From contig DATBHW010000035.1 of assembly GCA_036557285.1 (NCBI GenBank), positions 1-35,405 on the forward strand: 35,405 nucleotides of DNA, given 5' to 3'. Below, piece by piece: positions 904 through 35,258 of the stretch. This stretch comes from Ktedonobacterales bacterium (GTDB lineage Bacteria; Chloroflexota; Ktedonobacteria; Ktedonobacterales; DATBGS01). The notes beneath the pieces were generated by a model. It was not told the DNA's origin, made no database searches, and was given only the letters and a program-made list of their open reading frames with translations. Positions within the stretch are counted from its first letter, which is position 1, and each line of letters begins with the position of its first letter. The position numbers were made by a program, and so were the translations under genes.

Positions 904-3489
904 ATGGCCTACCTTGATATTGATCTGGAGATTGGTCGTGGCAGCGGGCGCGAGTACCCGCTGGTGGCGCGCTCGGCGGCGGGCGAGGCGCGGGTGATGA
1001 TGCGCTTCCCCTTCGATGAGTTTGCTCTGCAAGGCCGATTGAAGGACTTGCAAATTGCGCTGCTGCGCTCGGCGAATCTGCATCGGCGGGTGCTGTCAGA
1101 GGAAGAGCAGGCAGTGCAAGATTTCGGGCGCAAGCTTTTCGAGGCGGTGTTAGACGGGGATACGCTGGCCCTTTTCGACAAGAGCCGGGCGCAGGCGGCG
1201 CAGGAAGGGCTGGCGGGGGTGCGGCTGCGGCTGCGCATTCAAGCGCCGGAACTGGCGGCGCTGCCCTGGGAATATCTCTATGACGCGCGCCAGGGTGAGT
1301 ACGTTTGTCTGTCACGCGGTACGCCGCTGGTGCGCTATCCTGAGACGGCCCAGCCGATGCAGCCGCTGAAGGTAACGCCGCCCCTGCGTATCCTGGGGAT
1401 GATCTCGAACCCTGACGATCTGGATACGCTGGACGTGAGCCGCGAAAAAGAACGGATGCAGCAGGCGCTGGCGAAACTGGAAGAGGCCGGACTGGTGGAA
1501 CTGACCTGGCTGGCGGGGCAGACGTGGGAAGACTTGCAGGAAGCGATGTGGGGTGGTCCCTGGCATATCTTTCATTTCATCGGGCATGGCGGCTTTGATT
1601 CGCGCAGTGAGGAGGGCATGTTGGCGCTGGCGGACGAGGCGGGCAAGATGAACCTGCTGAGCGCGACGCAGGTGGGTCGCCTGCTGGCGAACCACAGCGC
1701 CCTGCGGCTGGCGCTTCTGAATGCCTGCGAGGGCGGCAAGAGCAGCACCCGCGATCTGTTCTCCAGCGCGGCGGCGACACTGGCGCGGCGCGGTATTCCG
1801 GCTGTGCTGGCGATGCAGTATGAGATTACGGATCAGGCGGCCATCCAACTGACGCGCACGTTCTATCGGGCGCTGGCGCATGGCTTGCCGGTGGACGCTG
1901 CCGTGACGGAAGCGCGAACGGCGATCAGCATGAGCGCCGCGCAGACGCTGGAATGGGGGACGCCGGTTCTGTACCTGCGAACGTCCGACAGCCTGCTTTT
2001 TGACGTGACAGAGCAGCCGATGCCGAGCCAGCCGATGCGCCCGCCGGAAGAACCTGTGCAGGCTGCTGCGCCGGAGACCGCGCCAGCCGCGCCAGCGCAG
2101 GCGAGCGAGCCAGCCAAAGCCGAGCAGAAAACGCCGCGCCAGCAGGCGGAAGAGGCCGAGCAGCAGCGCAGGCGCTATGAGGAGCAACTGGGGGAGGCGG
2201 AGCAGGCTATCGCGCAAGACCCGGCGGACGCCGACGCCTATTATACGAAGGGGTCAAGCCTGTACGCGCTCAATCGTCACGCGGAGGCGTTGGAGGCGTT
2301 CAAGCGGGCCATCGAGCTGCACCCGAAGTTTATCTGGGCCTACATTGGCCGGGCCTACGCGCTGAATGGCCTCAAGCACGCTGCTGAGGCGCTGGCCTCG
2401 GCGGAACAGGCGATTACGCTGATCGGCAAAGATCACCTGTTCTACCGCGAGGTTGCCGCTGCCGCGTTTCGGGCGAAGGGCTACGCGCTGGTGGGATTGA
2501 GGCGCGCCGATGACGCGACGAGCGCGTTTGATTACGCGATTGAGCTTGAGCCAAACAATATTCTGGCGCATCGCGGGAAAGAGGCAGCCCAGGCGCTGTT
2601 CAGCCCGTTCAGAGACACGCCGCTGCTCACCTACAAGGGCCATAAAGATTCGGTTTTTACTGTCGCCTGGTCGCCGGATGGCGCGTGCATCGCCTCTGCC
2701 GGTTACGATAAGACGGTGCAGGTCTGGGAGGCGCAGAGCGGCAAGACGCTGCTGGGCTATCGCCGCCACAGCAGCCTGATCAACGCGCTGGCGTGGTCGC
2801 CCGATGGGACGCGCATCGCTTCGGCCAGCGCCGATAAGATGGTGCAGATCGGAGAAGTGGCGAGCAAGAAGGCGCTGACGATCTATTCCGGCCACGCGAA
2901 AGAAGTCTACGCCGTTCTCTGGCTGCCGGATGGCGTTCGATTGGTTTCGGCAGGCAACGAAGCAAAGGTGTTGATCTGGGAAGCAGCGACGGGAAAGACG
3001 CTCTTGACCTACAAGGAGCATAGCAATTGGGTGGGGGCGCTGGCCTGCGCGCCCGATGGGAGGCGCATCGCGTCGGGGTCGGCGGATGGCACCCTGCACA
3101 TTTGGGATGCCGCCACAGGCAAGACGCTGCGCGTCTACACCGGCCACAGCGGTACGGTGTCGGCGCTGGCGTGGTCGCCGGATGGGACACGCATCGCCTC
3201 TGCGGGGAGCGAGCAAACGGTGCAGGTGTGGGAGGTGGAGACGGGCAGCGTACTCCACACCTATTCCGGCCACAGCAGTTGGGCTAACGCGCTGGCGTGG
3301 TCGCCGGACGGAAGCAAAATCGCTTCGGCCAGCGCCGACGTGCAGGTGTGGGAAGCGACGACGGGAACCCTGCTCTGCGCTTACACCGGCCACAGCGACG
3401 CGGTGCGCGCGGTAGTCTGGTCGCCTGATGGAGCGCGTCTTGCGTCCGGGGGGAACGATAACAGCGTGCAGGTCTGGGAGCCTGCCTGA
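904..3489 (+). CDS. CHAT-domain protease fused to TPR and seven-blade WD40 propeller
   Basis: The 861-residue protein has an N-terminal CHAT (caspase HetF-associated with TPRs) region, roughly residues 90-375. The probable catalytic dyad is His228 (motif FIGHGGF) and Cys275 (motif LLNACEGG). A Pro/Ala/Glu-rich linker and short coiled coil (about 375-437) lead to TPR-like repeats (about 438-560). Seven WD40 blades (about 572-861) each contain a W(S/A)PDG motif; the sixth is two residues short. The ATG at 904 is chosen because GGAGG lies about 8 nt upstream and the domain begins directly after it; an in-frame ATG at 832 lies inside the predicted promoter. In the family, CHAT domains are cysteine proteases of the caspase/separase clan, and the TPR and WD40 parts bind partners. 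Inferred role: a soluble, regulated protease or signalling scaffold. Its substrate is unknown. It probably acts with the WD40 gene downstream. Confidence 0.9.
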   Translation: MAYLDIDLEIGRGSGREYPLVARSAAGEARVMMRFPFDEFALQGRLKDLQIALLRSANLHRRVLSEEEQAVQDFGRKLFEAVLDGDTLALFDKSRAQAAQEGLAGVRLRLRIQAPELAALPWEYLYDARQGEYVCLSRGTPLVRYPETAQPMQPLKVTPPLRILGMISNPDDLDTLDVSREKERMQQALAKLEEAGLVELTWLAGQTWEDLQEAMWGGPWHIFHFIGHGGFDSRSEEGMLALADEAGKMNLLSATQVGRLLANHSALRLALLNACEGGKSSTRDLFSSAAATLARRGIPAVLAMQYEITDQAAIQLTRTFYRALAHGLPVDAAVTEARTAISMSAAQTLEWGTPVLYLRTSDSLLFDVTEQPMPSQPMRPPEEPVQAAAPETAPAAPAQASEPAKAEQKTPRQQAEEAEQQRRRYEEQLGEAEQAIAQDPADADAYYTKGSSLYALNRHAEALEAFKRAIELHPKFIWAYIGRAYALNGLKHAAEALASAEQAITLIGKDHLFYREVAAAAFRAKGYALVGLRRADDATSAFDYAIELEPNNILAHRGKEAAQALFSPFRDTPLLTYKGHKDSVFTVAWSPDGACIASAGYDKTVQVWEAQSGKTLLGYRRHSSLINALAWSPDGTRIASASADKMVQIGEVASKKALTIYSGHAKEVYAVLWLPDGVRLVSAGNEAKVLIWEAATGKTLLTYKEHSNWVGALACAPDGRRIASGSADGTLHIWDAATGKTLRVYTGHSGTVSALAWSPDGTRIASAGSEQTVQVWEVETGSVLHTYSGHSSWANALAWSPDGSKIASASADVQVWEATTGTLLCAYTGHSDAVRAVVWSPDGARLASGGNDNSVQVWEPA

Positions 3490-3490
3490 C

Positions 3491-3519
3491 TTGACAAAGC
3501 AGTGCCAGTTTGGTATGCT
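3491..3519 (+). promoter_or_regulatory. Predicted sigma-70-type promoter of the second WD40 gene
   Basis: A perfect TTGACA (3491-3496) is separated by 17 bp from TATGCT (3514-3519). It starts two bases after the upstream stop codon. The leader to the start codon is about 140 nt. The element resembles the promoter at 804-832. Confidence 0.7.
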
Positions 3520-3665
3520 GTGAGTGATACCAGCAGACCGCTGATTCAGCAGCGCCGACAGGGCCGAATAGCAGCATGTAAGCCGACAGTGTAAGAAGAG
3601 AAGCGAGCAAGGGTTGGGTGCGGCAATCGTGGTAGCAGAGCCTGTGAGAAAGGATGGCGCGCGGG

Positions 3666-4595
3666 ATGAGTATACGCTACTCTGAGAAGACCGCCGGGCA
3701 GGAGGCGCTTCCAGCCATGCGCTCCATTGCCTGGTCGCCTGATGGGCGCTGTATTGTGACGGGCGGCCATGACGGCATCGCGCAGGTGTGGGATGCCGCC
3801 AGCGGCTATTTGCTCTTTACGTATCGCGGTCACGGGCAAGGTCTGACGGCGGTGGCCTGGTCGCCCGATGGCAAGCGTATCGCTTCGAGCGCGCTGGATA
3901 AGACGGTGCAGGTCTGGCAGGTGGGGGAGGAGCGCGCGCTGCTGACCTACCAGGGCCATACCGATCTGGTCTCTGCTGTGGCGTGGGCGCCCGACAGCAG
4001 TTGTATCGCCTCCGGCGGCTTCGACAGCGCCGTCCACATCTGGAATAGTAAGAGCGGCGATTCCGCCCGCACCTATCGCGGCCACGAGCTTTCTTGTGGC
4101 TTTATTACGGCGCTGGCGTGGTCGCCCGATGGCAAACGCATGGCCTCCAGCGCGGGAAATGAGGAGGTGCAGGTGTGGGAAACCGTGACCGGAGATACCC
4201 TGCTCACCTATCAGCACTATATCAGTTGGGTGCGCGTGGTGGCGTGGTCGCCCGATAGCAAGTATATCGCCTCCACCAGCGATGATACAGTGCATTTGTG
4301 GGACGCGGCTACGGGCAAGCATCTGTTTACCTATCGCGGCCACGCGCCCACTATCGAGCGCCAGGAGCTTCAGTGGATAAGCGCGCTGGCGTGGTCCCCC
4401 GACGGCGCGCGCCTGGCTTCGGCCAGCGGCGCTGTTGTTCTGGTGTGGAGCGCCCGGACGGGCGAGACGCTTTCGACACACCGCTGCTCCAGCGGTATCT
4501 CCGCGCTGGCGTGGTCGCCCGATGGCAGCCAGATCGCCACCGGCGGCGAGCAAAAGACGCTGGAACTCTGGCATCCCCGCCAGGCCGGAGCTTGA
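3666..4595 (+). CDS. Stand-alone seven-blade WD40 beta-propeller protein
   Basis: The 309-residue protein consists almost entirely of seven WD40 repeats, each with a W(S/A)PD(G/S) turn and a VxxW-type strand. The sixth has a 5-7 residue insertion before its ISALAW strand. No enzymatic domain, signal peptide or membrane segment is visible, so it is probably a cytoplasmic protein-interaction platform. ATG 3666 is preferred over ATG 3654 because an AAGG element ends right at 3653, leaving no spacing for the earlier codon. Blade sequences closely resemble those of the CHAT-WD40 protein just upstream, suggesting duplication of its propeller and possible mixed binding of the same partner (inference). 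The next two small genes follow at short spacing, up to a terminator at 5196. Confidence 0.88.
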   Translation: MSIRYSEKTAGQEALPAMRSIAWSPDGRCIVTGGHDGIAQVWDAASGYLLFTYRGHGQGLTAVAWSPDGKRIASSALDKTVQVWQVGEERALLTYQGHTDLVSAVAWAPDSSCIASGGFDSAVHIWNSKSGDSARTYRGHELSCGFITALAWSPDGKRMASSAGNEEVQVWETVTGDTLLTYQHYISWVRVVAWSPDSKYIASTSDDTVHLWDAATGKHLFTYRGHAPTIERQELQWISALAWSPDGARLASASGAVVLVWSARTGETLSTHRCSSGISALAWSPDGSQIATGGEQKTLELWHPRQAGA

Positions 4596-5240: not shown

Positions 5241-5258
5241 GGCAGGAGCTGATGGGTG

Positions 5259-5436
5259 GGTCCACCATCTATCGGTGGTTGCCACTTGTAGCGCCGCCAT
5301 CTTGGCGGCTCAACGCTGGACTGCCGGTACGGTGGCCTGGAGGGCGAACGCGCGCCCTGGCGCAGCGGTGGCCGCCTGGAAGGCGGCGCTACAAGGAACA
5401 GGTCTCGCTTGCCAGCACCTCATGTCTGGTGGAACT
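5259..5436. repeat. Interspersed palindromic repeat, complete copy
   Basis: The copy runs from GGTCCACCATCTATCGG to a CTGGTGGAAC end, with TTGTAGCGCCGCC and GGCGGCGCTACAA cores inside. The centre holds a GGGCGAACGC(G)CGCCC-like hairpin common to the family. It begins 18 nt after the terminator of the preceding operon. Frames crossing it are chance translations. Confidence 0.85.
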
Positions 5437-12810: not shown

Positions 12811-12849
12811 TGGGGTCTTATACCGCATCCGTATGAAGCGGAGCGTGTT

Positions 12850-12962
12850 ACCTGTAGCGCCGCCGTCTCGGCGGCCACCGCTGCGCCAGGGCGAGCGTTC
12901 GCCCTTGGGGCTAGCGTCCCAGCAGGCCAGCGACAAGCCGCCTGGAAGGCGGCGCTACAAGT
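12850..12962. repeat. Interspersed palindromic repeat, short copy
   Basis: The copy has TGTAGCGCCGCC and GGCGGCGCTACA cores and the internal GGGCGAGCGTTCGCCC hairpin, but lacks the outer GGTTCCACCA ends. The rest of the gap to 13127 (12963-13055) holds a 17-bp sequence shared with the window's right edge (12980-12996) and otherwise nothing recognisable. Confidence 0.8.
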
Positions 12963-20353: not shown

Positions 20354-20533
20354 GGTTCCACCACACATGAGGTGTCGGCAAGCGATGGGTGTTACTTGTA
20401 GCGCCGCCGTCCCCGGCGGCCACCGCTGCGCCAGGGCGAGCGTTCGCCCTCCAGGCCACCGTACCAGCGGGCCGACGTTGAGCCGCCAAGATGGCGGCGC
20501 TACCAGCGGCAACCCCCAATCATTGGTGGAACC
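20354..20533. repeat. Interspersed palindromic repeat, complete copy (first of tandem pair)
   Basis: The copy is bounded by perfect GGTTCCACCA (20354-20363) and TGGTGGAACC (20524-20533) ends. The TTGTAGCGCCGCC core is on the left and GGCGGCGCTACCA on the right, with the GGGCGAGCGTTCGCCC hairpin in the middle. It lies in the gap between the accC promoter and tetR. Confidence 0.9.
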
Positions 20534-20542
20534 GTCCGTGTC

Positions 20543-20719
20543 GGTTCTAGCAAAAATGAGGTGTTGGCAAGCGAGGCATGGTACTTGTAGCGCCGCCGTC
20601 CCCGGCGGCCAACGCTGCGCCAGGGCGAGCGTTCGCCCTCCGGGCCACGGCGCCAGCAGGCCAACGTTGGGCCGCCAAGATGGCGGCGCTACAAGTGACC
20701 CCCGATAGGTGGTGGAACC
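20543..20719. repeat. Interspersed palindromic repeat, complete copy (second of tandem pair)
   Basis: The copy is bounded by GGTTCTAGCA and GGTGGAACC. It starts 9 nt after the previous copy in the same orientation. Its right end lies 10 nt from the tetR stop codon. The interior is about 80-90% like the first copy by eye. Confidence 0.9.
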
Positions 20720-22005: not shown

Positions 22006-22219
22006 CCAGCAATCCGCCTTACCCTGGCGGTTCATGAAGAGGATGGGCTGGCGGCTGAAGGCTGCGTCTGGAGGCTGCGCCTGCGGCGGCGGGCGCTTGC
22101 CTCGGTTGTTGCCCCGTCCTCTCGCTCGCTGCGCTCGCTCGCGCGCCCGCGCCGCCAAGTCCGTCTACACGGACTCCCCACCCGCAGCGGCGCAGCGTCT
22201 ATTGCGTGCAGCGCCGCTG

Positions 22220-22356
22220 CTTTTGTACCGCCGCCGCCCCGGCGGCCAACTGAACGCCTGGGCGAGCGTTCGCCCTCCGGGCCACCGTACCAGCGGGCCG
22301 ACGTTGAGCCGCCGAGACGGCGGCGCTACAAGTGCCCCCCTATAGGTGGTGGAACC
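22220..22356. repeat. Interspersed palindromic repeat, left end truncated
   Basis: The right side is intact (GGCGGCGCTACAAGTG through GGTGGTGGAACC), ending 10 nt from the stop codon of the minus-strand MFS gene. The left side starts at TTTTGTACCGCCGCC without the outer end. Positions 22006-22219 are GC-rich and hold no recognisable gene. Confidence 0.8.
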
Positions 22357-24536: not shown

Positions 24537-25094
24537 TTACGCTCCAGGCCATTCTGAGCGGAGCAGGGCATAGAGATATTCATCGCACCATTCGCCTTTG
24601 TACCAGGCGTGTTGGAGAAAATGACCCTCGCGGCGCATGCCGACCCGTTCCAACAGGCGGATAGAGGGCGTGTTTCGGCAATCAACCGTCGCAGTGATGC
24701 GGTGGAGGTGAAGCGTCTCGAAAGCATAAGCCAGCACTGCCCGAATGGCTTCCGCAGCGTAGCCCTGGTGCTGGTGCGCGCGGGCGAGCGAATAGCCTAT
24801 CTCGCCCTGGCGCGGTTCATCGGCGCGCACGTAAAGCATACAGTCTCCGATGAGCGCGTCAGTCGTTTTCAGCGCAATGGCGAACTGAAACCCGCTTCCT
24901 GGCGTCCCTGGCTGCAAGAGGCGCAGCTCGCTGATGAAGGCGCGCGCCGCGCGTTCGGTGATCGTTTCCCAACTTTGATAACGAGCGATCTCAGGATCAT
25001 TGCGATAGGCGAGAAAAGCAAGCAGGTCTGTAGCGGTGAAGCGCCGCAGGCGCAGGCGCGCGGTTTTCAGCGAACGAAAAGGCGGGGCTGTCAT
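24537..25094 (-). CDS. RimJ/RimL-type GNAT acetyltransferase
   Basis: The 185-residue protein carries the RimJ/RimL pattern: TARLRLRRFTATDLLAFLAY near the start and GEIGYSLARAHQHQGYAAEA for acetyl-CoA binding, then NTPSIRLLERVGMRREG. Relatives acetylate ribosomal protein N-termini, antibiotics or metabolites; which applies here is open. A minus-strand TATAAT (25138-25143) lies only 5 nt before the ATG at 25133, which would make that start leaderless. ATG 25094, with TTGGAG upstream, is therefore preferred. It is the first gene of the GNAT-GNAT-MFS set. Confidence 0.87.
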   Translation of the reverse strand: MTAPPFRSLKTARLRLRRFTATDLLAFLAYRNDPEIARYQSWETITERAARAFISELRLLQPGTPGSGFQFAIALKTTDALIGDCMLYVRADEPRQGEIGYSLARAHQHQGYAAEAIRAVLAYAFETLHLHRITATVDCRNTPSIRLLERVGMRREGHFLQHAWYKGEWCDEYLYALLRSEWPGA

Positions 25095-25137
25095 CAGTGG
25101 CGTCTCCAACAATTCATGCTTCGTAGGACTCATGTGT

Positions 25138-25143
25138 ATTATA
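25138..25143 (-). promoter_or_regulatory. -10 element for the acetyltransferase/MFS set
   Basis: The minus strand reads TATAAT. Transcription would begin near 25132, about 37 nt before ATG 25094. No good -35 was found. Confidence 0.4.
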
Positions 25144-25172
25144 TCGAATATCATGCGAGCCGGGCGTAATTA

Positions 25173-25274
25173 GTTAAAAATAATATGTGTATTGACTTTA
25201 TTGAAGAGATATGTTATAAAATTAAGCAAAGACTCATGGATATTGAATGCCAGACAAAAGGCAGCTTGCCAGGC
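25173..25274 (+). repeat. Promoter-leader cassette, copy A
   Basis: These 102 bp align with 32591-32691 with one single-base gap. The -35 (TTGACT), the extended -10 (TGTTATAAA) and about 30 downstream bases are identical, while the 17-bp spacer between the boxes differs at many positions. The two copies precede unrelated genes (an MFS exporter here, a DUF4097 protein there). Confidence 0.85.
25192..25220 (+). promoter_or_regulatory. Promoter of the second MFS gene (cassette A)
   Basis: TTGACT (25192-25197), a 17-bp spacer and TATAAA (25215-25220) with extended TG (25212-25213). Transcription would start near 25227, giving a leader of about 105 nt before the MFS start codon. Confidence 0.8.
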
Positions 25275-25343
25275 GGTCCTGACCGAGCAGGGATGGAGCG
25301 CCTGCCTATTTCATCAGGAACGAGGGATCAGTATGTCGCTTGA
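25236..25343 (+). CDS. Possible 35-codon leader peptide upstream of the MFS gene
   Basis: ATG 25236 opens a 35-residue frame that ends in a TGA at 25341-25343, overlapping the MFS start codon by 11 nt in another frame. It begins MDIEC, then has SLPG near residue 10 and M-x-RLP near 20. The second cassette encodes the same pattern (MDIEC, SLPG, MxRLP) with synonymous changes at several codons. No clear ribosome site precedes the ATG. It may control MFS translation by termination-reinitiation. Alternatively the similarity simply reflects duplicated DNA. Confidence 0.4.
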   Translation: MDIECQTKGSLPGGPDRAGMERLPISSGTRDQYVA

Positions 25344-26628
25344 TACCCAGGATTCACTGTCGCCAGCTCTCGCCGCGCCGTCCGCGCCACGCAGCCTGTG
25401 GCGCGAGGGCGGCTTTATGAAATTGTGGATTGGGCAGACGATTTCGATGGCCGGTTCGGCGGTGACAGACCTGGCCTTGCCGCTGACAGCGATTCTGCTG
25501 CTGCACGCCAGCCCATTGCAGTTAGGGCTGCTGCTGGCGGTTAATTCGGCGGCGGCGGCGGTGTTTGGCCTGTTTGCGGGGGCGTGGAGTGACCGTGTGC
25601 GCCGCCGCCCGCTGATGGTGCTGGCCGATGTGGGGCGGGCGCTGCTGATGGGCGCTGTTCCGGTGGCGGCGGTCCTGGGCGCGCTGCGCATCGAGGAGCT
25701 TTATGTGGTGGCGGCGGGCGTTGGCGCGCTCGACAGCCTTTTCGCGGCGGCGTACCAGGGCTTTTTGCCGTCGCTCGTTCGCCGCGATCAGTTGGTGTCG
25801 GCCAACAGCCGCTTCGAAGGGAGCCGGGTGCTGGCGCAGGTGCTTGGGCCAGGCTTAAGCGGCGCGCTGGTGCAATTGCTGACGGCCCCCTTTGCGCTGC
25901 TGGTGGACGCGCTCTCTTTCCTGTTTTCGGGAGGCTGCATCTGGTTCATTCGTGACCCGCAATCTGCGCCAGCGAAAGTGTCAGAGCGCGTCGGCCTCTG
26001 GCGTCAGATTGGCGAAGGGCTGCGCTTTATGCTGGCGCATCCGCTGGTGCGATCTCTGCTCTTGACGGTGGTTATCTTCAACCTGTTCAACCCGCTGCTC
26101 AATGCTCAGTCGGTGTTGTTCGCCACGCGAGAACTGGGCCTCAGCCCACTGCTGCTGGGCCTGGGAATTGTCGCGGCGGGCGCGTGTGGCGTGCTGGCGT
26201 CTATGGCGACGAGCGCGATCACGTCCCGCCTGGGTATGGGGTGGACGATGACGGTTGCAACCGGGATGATCTGCGGCGGCTGGCTGCTGGTTCCGTTCGT
26301 GCATGGCGTTGTGCCGGTGGCCTTTGCGCTGTTCGCGTTGGGGGCGTCGGTGGGAACGATGGGGGATGTCCTCTTCAATATCAACGCGGCCACCTTGCGA
26401 CAGATCGTGGTACCGGATCGGCTGCGGGGGCGGGTCAGCGCGAGTATGATGGTGGTGAGGCTGGGTGTTCAGCCGCTGGGGGCGCTGGCGGGCGGTGTGC
26501 TGGGCGAGCAGATCGGCCTGCGCCCTACCCTGCTGATCGCGGCGCTGGGGTTTGGCCTGGGGTTTCTCTCGATGTTCTTCTTGCCGCTGCGCCGTGTGCG
26601 CCAGCCTGATGCCGCGCAGGCGGAGTAA
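25333..26628 (+). CDS. MFS transporter (EntS/macrolide-efflux type)
   Basis: The 431-residue protein has about twelve membrane segments. The start reads SLWREGGFMKLWIGQTISMA, typical of MFS_3-type exporters, and the loop motif is AGAWSDRVRRRPLMVLADVG. Near the second loop it has PDRLRGRVSASMMVVRLG. It is a paralogue of the exporter at 33745 by its N-terminal signature and motif order. GAGGGA lies before ATG 25333. The gene is driven by the promoter-leader cassette at 25173 and overlaps a possible leader peptide. The substrate is unknown; the family exports lipophilic drugs or siderophores. Confidence 0.92.
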   Translation: MSLDTQDSLSPALAAPSAPRSLWREGGFMKLWIGQTISMAGSAVTDLALPLTAILLLHASPLQLGLLLAVNSAAAAVFGLFAGAWSDRVRRRPLMVLADVGRALLMGAVPVAAVLGALRIEELYVVAAGVGALDSLFAAAYQGFLPSLVRRDQLVSANSRFEGSRVLAQVLGPGLSGALVQLLTAPFALLVDALSFLFSGGCIWFIRDPQSAPAKVSERVGLWRQIGEGLRFMLAHPLVRSLLLTVVIFNLFNPLLNAQSVLFATRELGLSPLLLGLGIVAAGACGVLASMATSAITSRLGMGWTMTVATGMICGGWLLVPFVHGVVPVAFALFALGASVGTMGDVLFNINAATLRQIVVPDRLRGRVSASMMVVRLGVQPLGALAGGVLGEQIGLRPTLLIAALGFGLGFLSMFFLPLRRVRQPDAAQAE

Positions 26629-26741: not shown

Positions 26742-27533
26742 ATGAACGAATTTATCCTTCCAATTATTACGATAGCTTTGAGCGGCCTGATTACCATTGG
26801 CGGCGCGGTCTTTAATTACAATCTCACGCAGCGATCCAAGCGGCTGGACGAGCAGCGCCAGCGCCAGGCGGAAGCGGAGCGGCTGGCGGCGCGCTACGCC
26901 AAGCCGTTGTTGCAGGCGGCCTATGAACTGGAGGGTCGGCTGGAGGCTATTCTGGATGAAAAGCGGAATGGCCGTCTGTGGCTCTGGCCCAACTGGCAGC
27001 CCGACCCAACGAACGCCGAGCTTCCCCCGCTCACGTTCGATTATTATCTGAAAAGTTCGCTCTATCTGATCGGCCAGTTTTTCGCCTGGATTGATATTAT
27101 GAAGAAAGAAGAGATTTTCCTGCCGCTGAGCGACAAGGCGATCAACCAGGAGTTCCAGACGCTGCTGGACAATTGCATCAAGGCGTTTTCAGATTCGCGG
27201 GTCGCCTCTGGCGTTGCCATCTTTCGCCAGCAGCAGCGCGCTATCGGTGAGCAGATGTCGGAGGAATCGGCGAAAGACAGGACGCTGCACTGCGCCAGCT
27301 ACTCCACCTTTGTGGACAAATACGAGCAGGATGAACGCTTTCGCCGCTGGTTTGAGCCTGCCGAAAGTCTGATCTTACAGATTGAGCGCGAAGGTGATCC
27401 GCGCATGAAGCGGCTCCAGGCGATCACTCTCCAGTTGAAGCACTTCAAGCATTTTATCAATACCAAAATGGGCATTCAGATTGCTGAGCAGCGCCTGCCG
27501 ACCAGTGCTATGGAGGCCCAGGCCAGCAGCTAG
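26742..27533 (+). CDS. Hypothetical membrane-anchored coiled-coil protein
   Basis: The 263-residue protein begins with one membrane helix (residues 4-25, FILPIITIALSGLITIGGAV) followed directly by a charged coiled coil (about residues 30-60, RSKRLDEQRQRQAEAERLAA). The rest is soluble and helical, rich in Phe and Lys (FDYYLKSSLYLIGQFFAWID; LQAITLQLKHFKHFINTK). No family or catalytic motif was recognised. AAGGAGG lies 8 nt before ATG 26742, so expression should be efficient. The convergent membrane gene ends only 26 bp away and no terminator is visible in between. Confidence 0.75.
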   Translation: MNEFILPIITIALSGLITIGGAVFNYNLTQRSKRLDEQRQRQAEAERLAARYAKPLLQAAYELEGRLEAILDEKRNGRLWLWPNWQPDPTNAELPPLTFDYYLKSSLYLIGQFFAWIDIMKKEEIFLPLSDKAINQEFQTLLDNCIKAFSDSRVASGVAIFRQQQRAIGEQMSEESAKDRTLHCASYSTFVDKYEQDERFRRWFEPAESLILQIEREGDPRMKRLQAITLQLKHFKHFINTKMGIQIAEQRLPTSAMEAQASS

Positions 27534-27559: not shown

Positions 27560-28495
27560 TCAAGTCGCGGGCTGACCAGCAATCGTCGGCATGGCAGCAG
27601 CGGGGGCGTCCGGCGCGCGCCCCCGGATGAGCGCGGCAATGGCAACGGCGGTAGCAACCGCCATCAGCGCCAGAATCACGAGCCAGGTGAGGGTGGTATT
27701 GCTCGCCAGCAAGCCCTCGTCTTCTGCGAAAAGCTGCGGGTCAGCCGCCCTGGCCGCGATGCCATAGACAAGCGTTGCCGCAAACATGACGATCATTGCC
27801 AGGGTCGTGATGATCGCTGGAATGCGGGCGAAGCGAAAGAGCTTTTCGCTGATCTGGCTGCGGATGACGACAATGCAGACCGCCGCTGCGCTGGCGATGG
27901 CCGCCAATCCGAACAACCCGAAAAACAGCCCACCAACGAGGATACGCTGGAGGATCGGCCTCGACAAGAAGTCGCCAGGGGTGAGCCATAACAAGAGCGC
28001 ACCAGAGCCAATCCAGACGGCCAGGGAGAGAGGCGGAACGGCAAAGAGGGCCAGTAAGCGCCAGCGTTTCGCAGCGATGGCCGAGCGCGCCACTGCAACG
28101 GCGAGGGGCAGGCCGCCCACCAGGACCGCCAGCAGCGCGGCGAATGCGCCAGCATAGAGCGCCCAGTAGGAAACGGCAACGCTAGTGGTGCTGTCGAGCA
28201 GGTCGGTGAAGTCGTCGTATTCGACCATTTTGCCAAAGGCCAGCCCGGCGACGACAAAGCCGATGTAGGCGCAAAAGACGATCACTGCCGTCGTGCGTAA
28301 TCTGTTCATAAGCGGAAACATCCTCCCGGTAACGGATTCAAGATGCAGGTGCGCGTCAACGGCCCCCAGGCAGACATCCCAAAGCGTCCAGAGCGAGAAG
28401 GGGCAGGCTTCCAGCAGCGCCAGAAACTCTTCCCCGTAGCGGGCGCGCCACGCCTGCGGGTAGAGGTACAGCAGCCAGTGTTTGCGATGTTTCAT
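27560..28495 (-). CDS. Multi-pass membrane protein paired with PadR
   Basis: The 311-residue protein starts with a soluble segment (KHWLLYLYPQAWRARYGEEF) followed by about seven hydrophobic helices. The N-terminal 'YPxxWRxRYGEEFLALLE' pattern is common in membrane proteins encoded next to PadR regulators in Chloroflexota and Acidobacteria (from memory). Its ATG overlaps the padR stop codon by 4 nt (ATGA), so the two are translationally coupled. The function is unknown; the context suggests a target of PadR-controlled stress or envelope response. Confidence 0.8.
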   Translation of the reverse strand: MKHRKHWLLYLYPQAWRARYGEEFLALLEACPFSLWTLWDVCLGAVDAHLHLESVTGRMFPLMNRLRTTAVIVFCAYIGFVVAGLAFGKMVEYDDFTDLLDSTTSVAVSYWALYAGAFAALLAVLVGGLPLAVAVARSAIAAKRWRLLALFAVPPLSLAVWIGSGALLLWLTPGDFLSRPILQRILVGGLFFGLFGLAAIASAAAVCIVVIRSQISEKLFRFARIPAIITTLAMIVMFAATLVYGIAARAADPQLFAEDEGLLASNTTLTWLVILALMAVATAVAIAALIRGRAPDAPAAAMPTIAGQPAT

Positions 28496-28809
28496 AGCGC
28501 GGCCAACCTCCGCAGCCCTAGATGGGCTACCTGTTCCAGACTGGTGAGTTGTTCGCGCAGCGCGGCAGCGCCAGCCGCCGTCAGGCGATAGGGGCGGCGG
28601 CGATCTTCGGCGGGCAGGGCTGCAATCCAGCCGCGCTGCTCCAGGCGAGCCAGCGCGCCGTAGAGGGTGCCTGGCCCCAGCCGGACCAGGGCGAAGGCTT
28701 CGATGTCCTCCATCATGGCGTACCCATGCCTGGGGCCACCCGCCAGGCTTGCCATGATGAGCAGCGATGGGTCGGAGAAATGGCCGAGATCGAGCAAATC
28801 CTCAGTCAT
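28492..28809 (-). CDS. PadR-family transcriptional regulator
   Basis: The 105-residue winged-helix protein carries the PadR pattern: LLIMASLAGGPRHGYAMMED, GPGTLYGALARLEQRGWI, and the wing RRRPYRLTAAG. It lacks the long C-terminal dimerisation helices of classical PadR, so it is a short (PadR-s1-like) member. AAGAGGAG lies 7 nt before ATG 28809. A 36-bp imperfect palindrome lies 17 nt upstream of the start codon, overlapping its promoter, which implies self-repression. It is cotranscribed with the membrane gene at 27560. Confidence 0.92.
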   Translation of the reverse strand: MTEDLLDLGHFSDPSLLIMASLAGGPRHGYAMMEDIEAFALVRLGPGTLYGALARLEQRGWIAALPAEDRRRPYRLTAAGAAALREQLTSLEQVAHLGLRRLAAL

Positions 28810-31331: not shown

Positions 31332-31573
31332 GGTTCTACCAACTATCGGGGGTTGCCACTTGTAGCGCCGCCTTCCAGGCGGCCAACGTTGGCCTGCTGG
31401 TCCGCTGGCCTGGAGGGCGCACGCTCGCCAGGGCGCAGCGGTGGCCGCCTGGAAGGGACGCGCGAGCGACCACCGGGAGCGAGGACCTCTCGCTCGACGA
31501 GGCACAGCCGAGGCAAGCGGCCCTTCCCGAAGGGAGGCGGCGCTACAAGTGACCCCCGATAATTGGTGGAACC
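31332..31573. repeat. Interspersed palindromic repeat, long copy abutting a stop codon
   Basis: The ends GGTTCTACCAACTATCGGGG and CCCCCGATAATTGGTGGAACC are inverted repeats of about 40 bp with few mismatches, including the TTGTAGCGCCGCC core. One arm carries the expanded module also found at 505 and 16405. The left end begins on the base after the M20 peptidase stop codon. Confidence 0.92.
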
Positions 31574-32547: not shown

Positions 32548-32590
32548 AAGGACTGGACCAGCATTCAACGCTGGGCCAGTCCTTCTTTTC
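32548..32590 (+). terminator. Rho-independent terminator after the nucleotidyltransferase gene
   Basis: Arms 32548-32562 and 32570-32584 pair at 14 of 15 positions around a 7-nt loop, followed by CTTTTC. The next promoter cassette begins immediately afterwards. Confidence 0.88.
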
Positions 32591-32691
32591 GTTAAAATAA
32601 TATTAGTATTGACTTTATCAATTTATCATGTTATAAAATTAAGCAAAGACTCATGGATATTGAATGTCGGGCAAAGCGCAGCTTGCCAGGC
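32591..32691 (+). repeat. Promoter-leader cassette, copy B
   Basis: This is the second copy of the cassette at 25173-25274. Identity is concentrated in the promoter boxes and in the bases from the -10 to just past the ATG at 32653, whereas the spacer between -35 and -10 diverges. Confidence 0.85.
32609..32637 (+). promoter_or_regulatory. Promoter of the DUF4097 gene (cassette B)
   Basis: TTGACT (32609-32614), a 17-bp spacer and TATAAA (32632-32637) with extended TG (32629-32630), the same boxes and spacing as at 25192. Confidence 0.8.
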
Positions 32692-32739: not shown

Positions 32740-33453
32740 ATGCAAAAAGTAACCGCTACCGAATCTCAGGGCTTTACAGTAACGGAGCCTCCCAAGATTA
32801 TTATTCGGAACCCCGTCGGCGCGGTAGATGTTATCGCGGGCGAGGTTGATCAGGTCACGGTTCAGGCCACGAAGAAGGCGCGTAATTCTTCCTACGAGGC
32901 GGCTGAGCGTGATCTGGAAGAGATTACGGTGAGCATGGAGCAAAACGGCAATACGGTGACGGTTCAGGTCGATCTGGGCCAGGCGTTTCCGTCCTGGTCG
33001 CAGCGTTCGGTGCGCCTGCTGGTGACTGTGCCGGAACGGGCCGATCTTGATGCCGATGTGAAGGTGGGCAAGCTGCACATTTATGGTTTGACGGGGAAGG
33101 TGCTGGCCCAGGTTGCCACCGGACAGGCGGAACTTCGCCGCGTGACGCTGGCGGATGAGTCGCGTCTGCTGGCGCATACCGGGCAGGTGGACCTGGATGG
33201 GGCGTTGGTCGCGGGCGCTTCGCTGGATGTGCGCGTGCATGTTGGCAGCGCAGACCTGCGATTGCCTGCTGCGACCTACGCGCATCTGGATGCCAGCACG
33301 CATATCGGCCAGATTGACGTGTCGGGCTGGCCGGTGTCGGTCTGGCGGCGCAATCTGGGCGCGCGGGCCTCTGGCGATATGAGTACCGAGCCGACGGGCG
33401 CGCTCAATGTCCAGGCGGATGTGGGCAGTGTGAGCCTGGCGGCTTCCTCATGA
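32740..33453 (+). CDS. DUF4097-type beta-helix protein
   Basis: The 237-residue protein is made of short repeating beta-strands with regular Val/Leu and Gly/Asp positions (IIIRNPVGAVDVIAGEVDQV; ADVKVGKLHIYGLTGKVLAQ), the pattern of DUF4097 adhesin-like proteins. It has no signal peptide or membrane segment. The frame stays open upstream to ATG 32653, so a 29-residue N-terminal extension (MDIEC..SLPG..MGRLP) is possible. ATG 32740 is preferred because the domain starts there, AGAAAGAG precedes it and the upstream part matches the separate leader peptide of cassette A. The function is unknown; the family is often found near envelope-stress regulators. Confidence 0.8.
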   Translation: MQKVTATESQGFTVTEPPKIIIRNPVGAVDVIAGEVDQVTVQATKKARNSSYEAAERDLEEITVSMEQNGNTVTVQVDLGQAFPSWSQRSVRLLVTVPERADLDADVKVGKLHIYGLTGKVLAQVATGQAELRRVTLADESRLLAHTGQVDLDGALVAGASLDVRVHVGSADLRLPAATYAHLDASTHIGQIDVSGWPVSVWRRNLGARASGDMSTEPTGALNVQADVGSVSLAASS

Positions 33454-33744: not shown

Positions 33745-35016
33745 ATGCTGACGAGCAGTGACGAGACGGCAGCTATCGTAGAGGCGTCCCCCAAAAAACC
33801 TGGATCGCTGTGGCGCAACCGCGATTATTTGCTGCTCTGGAGCGGGCAGACGGTTTCGAGCTTTGGGACGCAAATCTCTGGCTTCGCCTTCCCGCTGCTG
33901 GTGCTGTTTCTGACCGGCTCGCCTGGGCAGGCGGGCCTGGTTGGCGCGGCGCGCTCGGTTCCGTACATCTTTTTGAGTCTGCCGGTGGGCGCGCTGATTG
34001 ATCGCTGGGACCGCAAGCGCGTGATGATTCTGTGTGACGCCGGGCGCGCGCTCATCCTGGGGAGCATTCCGCTGGCCTACGCCATCTGGGGGACAGCGCC
34101 AATCTGGCAGCTTTATCTGGCGGCGCTGACGGAGGGTACGCTTTTCGTCCTCTTTAATATTGCCGAAGTGGCCTGCCTGCCGCGCGTGGTCCCCCAGGAG
34201 CAGTTGCCGGCTGCCGTTGGGCAGAATCAGGCGTCGGAGATCACCGCTGTGCTGGCTGGCTCACCGCTGGGCGGCGCGCTCTATGCGGCGAGCCAGTTGC
34301 TCCCGTTTCTGGCCGATGCCATCTCCTACGCGGCCTCGGTGGTCTCGCTCTTTTTTATTCGGACGGCGTTTCAAGGCGAGCGCACCGCCGAGCGGCGTCG
34401 GCTGCGCGTGGAGATCGGCGCGGGATTGCGCTGGCTCTGGAATCAGCCGCTCATCCGCTTTATGGCGTTTCTGACCGGCGGCCTCAACTTTACGAACGGT
34501 GTGACACTGGTGGTCATTATCATCGCGCAGCGCCAGGGCGTCTCCGCGCCGGTCATTGGCTTGATCTTCGCTGTCGGCGCGATTGGCGGCGTCCTTGGCT
34601 CTATGGCCGGGCCATTCTTCCAGAAGCGGTTCAGCTTTGGCGCGGTGATCATCGCTACCGTCTGGATTCAGGCGGTGGCCTGGCTGTTCTACGTGTTTCA
34701 GCCCCAGGTCTTGCTGCTGGGCGTGATCCTGGCGGTCATCTGGGTCACGGGGCCGGTGTATAACGTGGTGCAGTTCAGCTATCGGATCGCCCTGATTCCT
34801 GATGAGTTGCAGGGGCGAGTGAACAGCGTCTTCCGCCTGCTGGCGTTTGGCTTTCAGCCGCTGGGCCTGGCGCTGACAGGCTTGCTGCTTCAATGGGCCG
34901 ATGTTGTGCCGACTGTGCTGATCTTTGGCGCGTGCCTGATTGGCCTGGCTCTCGCCACGACGCTCAATCCCCATGTGCGCCACGCGCGCCCGCTGGAGGA
35001 AGTGAAGGCGGAGTAG
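33745..35016 (+). CDS. MFS transporter (EntS/macrolide-efflux type)
   Basis: The 423-residue protein has about twelve membrane segments. It opens with SLWRNRDYLLLWSGQTVSSF, and the loop motif reads GALIDRWDRKRVMILCDAGR. The second-half motif is PDELQGRVNSVFRLLAFG. It is a paralogue of the exporter at 25333. ATG 33745 follows a GGGAAGG-rich stretch. The upstream leader includes a palindromic repeat, and the stop codon's last base is the first base of another repeat copy. The substrate is unknown; the family exports drugs or siderophores using the proton gradient. Confidence 0.92.
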   Translation: MLTSSDETAAIVEASPKKPGSLWRNRDYLLLWSGQTVSSFGTQISGFAFPLLVLFLTGSPGQAGLVGAARSVPYIFLSLPVGALIDRWDRKRVMILCDAGRALILGSIPLAYAIWGTAPIWQLYLAALTEGTLFVLFNIAEVACLPRVVPQEQLPAAVGQNQASEITAVLAGSPLGGALYAASQLLPFLADAISYAASVVSLFFIRTAFQGERTAERRRLRVEIGAGLRWLWNQPLIRFMAFLTGGLNFTNGVTLVVIIIAQRQGVSAPVIGLIFAVGAIGGVLGSMAGPFFQKRFSFGAVIIATVWIQAVAWLFYVFQPQVLLLGVILAVIWVTGPVYNVVQFSYRIALIPDELQGRVNSVFRLLAFGFQPLGLALTGLLLQWADVVPTVLIFGACLIGLALATTLNPHVRHARPLEEVKAE

Positions 35017-35258
35017 TTCCACCAGCTATCGGGGGTTGCCACTTGTAGCGCCGCCATCCTGGCGGCTCAACGCTGGCCTGTCGGTACGTGGCGCTGGAGA
35101 GCAAACGCTCGCCCTGGCGTAGCGTTGGCCGCCAAGATGGCGGCGCTACAAGTGGCTCCGGCCAGCGCGAACGCTCGCCAGGGCGCAGCGGTGGCCGCCT
35201 GGAAGGCGGCGCTACAAGTACCATGCCTCGCTTGCCAACACCTCATTTTTGCTAGAAC
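35016..35258. repeat. Interspersed palindromic repeat, double copy overlapping a stop codon
   Basis: The left end GTTCCACCAGCTATCGGGGG begins on the last base of the MFS stop codon. The right end is TTTTTGCTAGAAC. Inside are one full core pair and an extra right half (GGCGGCGCTACAAGT appears twice, near 35140 and 35205), so it is a partly duplicated element. Confidence 0.88.

Follow-up and report, generated by a model that had tools for sequence, protein, structure and literature searches.

DUF2089 proteins form a widespread family, described as previously uncharacterised in an mSystems paper of 2024 (PMC11237479). The same source unifies DUF4097, DUF2154 and DUF2807 as toastrack, and independently places DUF2089, as a ZnR-HTH-SHOCT protein, in toastrack gene contexts. 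The literature searched holds predictions for DUF2089 and no operator; this report proposes an operator, a target list and a mechanism, and, for a little-studied bacterial group that is probably Chloroflexota, would bring toastrack envelope-stress proteins and drug-type exporters together under common control. The reading preferred here, with a probability of roughly 0.6 on the strength of sequence comparison, is an envelope-stress and export regulon in which the operator overlaps the −35 box, exporters and toastrack proteins are the targets, and DUF2089 is the likely regulator.

The window, which is the whole analysed stretch of 35,405 nucleotides, contains two copies of a cassette on the forward strand. 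Copy 1 (25177–25274), which comprises the promoter and the first part of the leader, lies upstream of the exporter gene MFS-A, and copy 2 (32594–32691) upstream of a DUF4097 gene. They align without gaps at a constant offset of 7417, with 83 of 98 bases identical (E 8e-26 in a BLAST search of the genome). Both carry a sigma-70-type promoter with an extended −10 element (25192–25220 and 32609–32637, both +), defined as −35 and −10 hexamers 16–18 nt apart with TGN before the −10; each reads TTGACT-17-TATAAA, with the TG one base before the −10 box. An identical run of 39 bases (25211–25249), covering the extended −10, the start site and the first ~25 nt of the leader, arises in only 0.3% of cases when the 15 differences are shuffled (P 0.003), and the spacer between the boxes holds eight of the 15; divergence is therefore non-uniform. 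A preliminary description of this DNA had reported a near-gapless alignment of about 100 bp, the same boxes with their extended TG, and an identical downstream stretch beside a diverged spacer. All of this is confirmed, and the differences are clustered, where uniform divergence had been named as the outcome that would count against selection.

The cassette core has a GC content of 17%, against 62% for the window. The full cassette is present twice in the genome, as is its 36-bp −10/leader part; with only two full copies and no plasmid match, a dispersed repeat, MITE or mobile element was ruled out. The window does hold a dispersed repeat, CTTGTAGCGCCGCC...GGCGGCGCTACAAG, of about 110–150 nt, in many copies and both orientations (5256–5395, 12825–12962, 20354–20697, 22180–22333, 31333–31456 and 35013–35219), which has the appearance of a family of intergenic palindromic repeats. 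A coding region at 2610–4571 contains WD40-like tandem repeats, each about 126 bp long.

MFS-A (25333–26628, +) encodes a 431-residue MFS_1/MFS_3 exporter (Pfam MFS_1, 1.7e-33), and a divergent gene upstream of cassette 1 (24537–25154, −) encodes a GNAT acetyltransferase (Pfam Acetyltransf_3, 5.8e-36). Named homologues of MFS-A include Chloroflexi; the best are ~40–45% identical over most of the length, and TATTGACTTTWT is found at none of their loci. Cassette 2 comes just after the intrinsic terminator of the upstream gene (32548–32589, +; a hairpin of −24.4 kcal/mol followed by a T-rich tail). The DUF4097 gene behind it (32740–33453, +) encodes a toastrack-like protein that scores 22.0 bits against PF13349 (E 1.2e-4), just under the cut-off of 22.9, and is 38% identical to a relative's DUF4097 protein above the Pfam cut-off. 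MFS-B (33745–35016, +), which has the same Pfam families as MFS-A and is 33% identical to it, follows after a gap of ~290 bp with no predicted promoter or terminator, and is possibly co-transcribed with the DUF4097 gene. To call the genes behind the two cassettes unrelated, as was done at first, is thus misleading: MFS-B stands behind the DUF4097 gene, and at L230 in a relative from another family a single promoter precedes an MFS and a DUF2807 gene. The gene at 26742 was considered as a second DUF4097 gene and rejected as unrelated. At 27560–28809 (−), a PadR regulator precedes a membrane protein for which Pfam has no family; the pair resembles the HAAS-PadR pairs of PMC11237479.

About 50 nt of 5′ leader are common to the two cassettes. 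The predicted leader of MFS-A spans 25226–25332 (+), its first part being shared with copy 2 only. A mechanically called, candidate ORF of 35 codons, MDIECQTKGSLPGG... (25236–25343, +), begins in it; its translation is putative, and the same ATG in copy 2 is in frame with DUF4097, whose reading frame is open from 32653, within the leader. The shared leader might itself be the regulatory element (a riboswitch, attenuator or leader peptide), with the likeness of the promoters incidental, given that the 39-base identity extends into it and that the end of the ORF overlaps the MFS-A start. This is most improbable. Rfam has no match, which together with ordinary folds (no better than shuffles; z −0.40 for the MFS-A leader and −0.33 for the other) ruled out a riboswitch, attenuator or known leader RNA; exact matches were likewise absent from viral and genome collections. 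The leader occurs only twice in the genome and is absent at the other three sites, where the operator-promoter is present on its own. The most plausible view treats the shared leader as a paralogous tract, one cassette having been derived from the other by local duplication or gene conversion, and not as a regulon signature. The shared signal is the operator overlapping the −35 box together with the promoter, not the 5′ leader.

This promoter part is found again at three further loci of the genome, and also in related families. The recurring element is a 15-bp imperfect near-palindrome, ATTGACTTTWTYAAT, that overlaps the −35 box. The proposed operator reads ATTGACTTTATTGAA in copy 1 (25191–25205, +), a motif common to four other sites of the genome and to relatives, and ATTGACTTTATCAAT in copy 2 (32608–32622, +), with the dyad ATTGA-N5-TCAAT. 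BLAST with copy 1 also matched C73:46449 (E 0.001), and the pattern TATTGACTTTAT-N13-TATAAA, with nine matches against two for a reversed control, added C12:43302 and C47:21037. The C73 site precedes DUF2089 and then a DUF4097 gene; the C47 site precedes a DrrA-type ABC ATPase and an ABC-2 permease; the C12 site precedes a protein without a Pfam family and then FdhD. A sequence-only model, partly built from these sites, finds exactly five in the genome at 42–45 bits, the next match scoring 12.5. Pattern or BLAST matches at L025, L028 and L033 were judged by eye to be chance matches. Elsewhere in the same genome (G000; C55:30566, C73:36733 and C77:10233), sigma-A promoters carry a LexA-box-like TAGAA...TTCTA palindrome in the spacer.

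A rival account would invoke strong housekeeping promoters and a local duplication of recent date, with boxes that match as sigma-A needs them and no common regulator; TTGACT-17-TATAAA with an extended TG is, after all, a near-consensus sigma-70 promoter. However, when the sites of this genome are aligned with two from another family, TATTGACTTTWTYAA is common around the −35 box, so that conservation goes past the hexamers. Generic TTGAC/TGNTATAA extended −10 promoters of the same genome are mostly TTGACA and lack the TTWTYAA extension, and the motif thus stands upstream of several unlinked genes beyond what generic promoters share.

The geometry of the sites speaks against the housekeeping account as well. 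The box is near-identical to its own reverse complement, and enrichment of a minus-strand copy, taken over 32 sites, is confined to the one offset of −21 bp (0 of 500 shuffles; mean −5.7 against a shuffle maximum of −17.1, sd 0.7). The five sites of this genome have only a weak upstream box, the strongest examples being in family f4; at this genome's C47 site and in G017, the inverted copy lies at about −32. At such spacings of two or three helical turns, the paired boxes face the same side of the DNA, which is expected of protein binding and not of a −35 element. An inverted box at a fixed −21 bp, or two helical turns, is unexplained by a bare −35 box.

In relatives from the order, whose genomes reach 13.7 Mb, the motif is kept before functionally similar genes. 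Outside its training set, the first model matched before orthologous MFS genes in G024 and G009, and in G009 also before a DUF2807 gene. Held-out matches of a second model, R2, built from 19 sites, lie before MFS and DUF2807 genes in G002, an orthologue of that MFS gene in G014, a DUF2807 gene in G020, MFS genes in G009, G024, G005 and G017, and ABC ATPase genes in G008, G011 and G014. MFS, DUF2807 or ABC exporter genes follow 10 of 22 held-out R2 sites in families f1, f3 and f4 against 1 of 20 in f2 (P 0.003); by hand-assigned ortholog groups the enrichment is marginal (6/17 against 1/16, P 0.05). In f2 genomes R2 mostly matches assorted genes, as it would generic promoters, which is what the housekeeping account predicts; the repeated association with exporters, toastrack proteins and DUF2089 is not expected of a bare −35 box, and the account as a whole is quite unlikely. 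The search of the genome and its relatives, with the genes behind each copy listed, therefore supports the regulon joining an MFS exporter with a DUF4097 protein that the preliminary description had suggested, with the promoter part recurring before exporters, toastrack genes and DUF2089. Its concern that only two copies might exist applies to the leader and the full cassette, and not to the operator-promoter. Of the selection it had seen on the boxes and on the 5′ leader, the former gains from the further sites here and in other families; the latter falls, no other regulon member sharing the leader.

DUF2089 is encoded in 42 of the 47 genomes of the order, usually once. The present genome has a single gene, at C73, outside the window and behind the same promoter. 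At L038, the protein matches DUF2089 (1.5e-21), a zinc ribbon (1.7e-12) and, below the cut-off, a SHOCT-like domain (2.4e-4), and the next gene encodes DUF4097 (2.5e-15), which makes this a toastrack/DUF2089 context. A position weight matrix trained on the four non-DUF2089 sites of this genome, with a pass mark above the 99th percentile of same-locus windows, finds the motif upstream of DUF2089 in 13 of 13 scorable f3/f4 relatives (P 8e-10; 9e-7 against AT-rich windows), L171 being left out as an incomplete locus. Together with the C73 site, this is the arrangement expected for autoregulation. Counted across f1, f3 and f4, the motif lies beside DUF2089 in 14 of 14 scorable genomes. Of its four zinc cysteines the f2 protein has lost three; its helix-turn-helix is changed as well, with AYNTAR replacing SYPTV[RK], and only 1 of 13 upstream regions of DUF2089 exceeds the same cut-off (L199, 11.8). 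This covariation of protein and operator favours DUF2089 as the binder, with f2 counting as one clade. An AlphaFold2 model of DUF2089 (pLDDT 83) gives weak matches to helix-turn-helix folds of the LuxR/NarL type and of sigma region 4, and a search of solved structures by sequence returned nothing convincing. Next to DUF2089 in other orders of the phylum the motif signal is weaker (median 7.5 against 1.3, P 3e-6) and only a hint, because the controls were not GC-matched. From these comparisons we infer that DUF2089 would be the protein that binds the operator.

The regulon and its operator could also be real with a different protein bound, of the ArsR/SufR-like, TetR or PadR type, and DUF2089 as one more target. 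SufR-like regulators of relatives adjoin TTGAC-type palindromes, the C47 site and its operon have a TetR gene immediately upstream, and DUF4097 operons in Listeria are under PadR (PMC6624303). Yet in this genome the site of the SufR-like orthologue (C5) is another one, TTGACTTGCTTGACAAAG, which ruled out the ArsR/SufR-like regulator of L160/L161 as master, and neither TetR nor PadR genes were seen to accompany the motif repeatedly, as DUF2089 does; a regulator of another family is on balance unlikely. In L160 (2290–3649) and L161 (130–1825), with which L254 and L255 are grouped, the ArsR/SufR-like gene is divergent from DUF2231 or DUF2231-Rieske genes, and the TTGACTTTCTTGACAA-type palindromes there are apparently a separate operator. 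At L041 (C20:8014, −), a PadR gene precedes an ABC exporter; its promoter is overlapped by copies of an inverted TTATATCGG..CGTTATAA element, and the gene is probably autoregulated.

With DUF2089 as the regulator, the computed results (the common motif, the genes it precedes, its position before DUF2089 and the 21-bp phasing) can be drawn together as follows. Near-consensus housekeeping promoters would have their −35 box buried in the 15-bp operator, and would drive MFS exporters, DrrA-type ABC exporters and toastrack (DUF4097/DUF2807) proteins. DUF2089, with its zinc ribbon, helix-turn-helix and SHOCT-like tail, is predicted to be made with a toastrack protein from the same promoter at C73. 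Its dimers would bind the operator (ATTGACTTTATYAAT DNA), often together with the second inverted box two turns upstream, and so block access of RNA polymerase to the −35 box. Release of DUF2089 would come with a membrane signal, perhaps passed on by the toastrack partners, and would allow exporters to be made; signal and release are suggested by those partners and by proposals in PMC11237479. Repression is likelier than activation because near-consensus extended −10 promoters should not need an activator and because the box covers the −35. The regulon is probably autoregulated by DUF2089. The fuller proposal, that DUF2089 is an autoregulated zinc-ribbon repressor of an export and envelope-stress regulon with boxes often two helical turns apart, and that f2 lost or changed the zinc ribbon, recognition helix and operator together, stands at about even odds on present sequence comparisons.

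Among described systems, the ArsR/SufR-like regulator with DUF2231/Rieske targets (L160, L161) shares a TTGAC-type palindrome overlapping the −35 box; it differs in the form of the motif, in its targets, and in that its orthologue here has a distinct site. Listeria PadR repressors such as LltR (PMC6624303) control membrane-associated genes, including DUF4097, as the proposed repressor would, but belong to another regulator family, and no PadR gene recurs beside the present motif. The PSP/Lia-type envelope-stress contexts of PMC11237479 are also alike: there DUF2089 is encoded with toastrack proteins (DUF4097/DUF2154/DUF2807) and predicted to pass a membrane signal on to transcription. The available part of that paper gives a prediction from gene context without a named operator or distributed targets, whereas the present proposal has a specific operator and, as targets, unlinked genes for MFS and ABC exporters.
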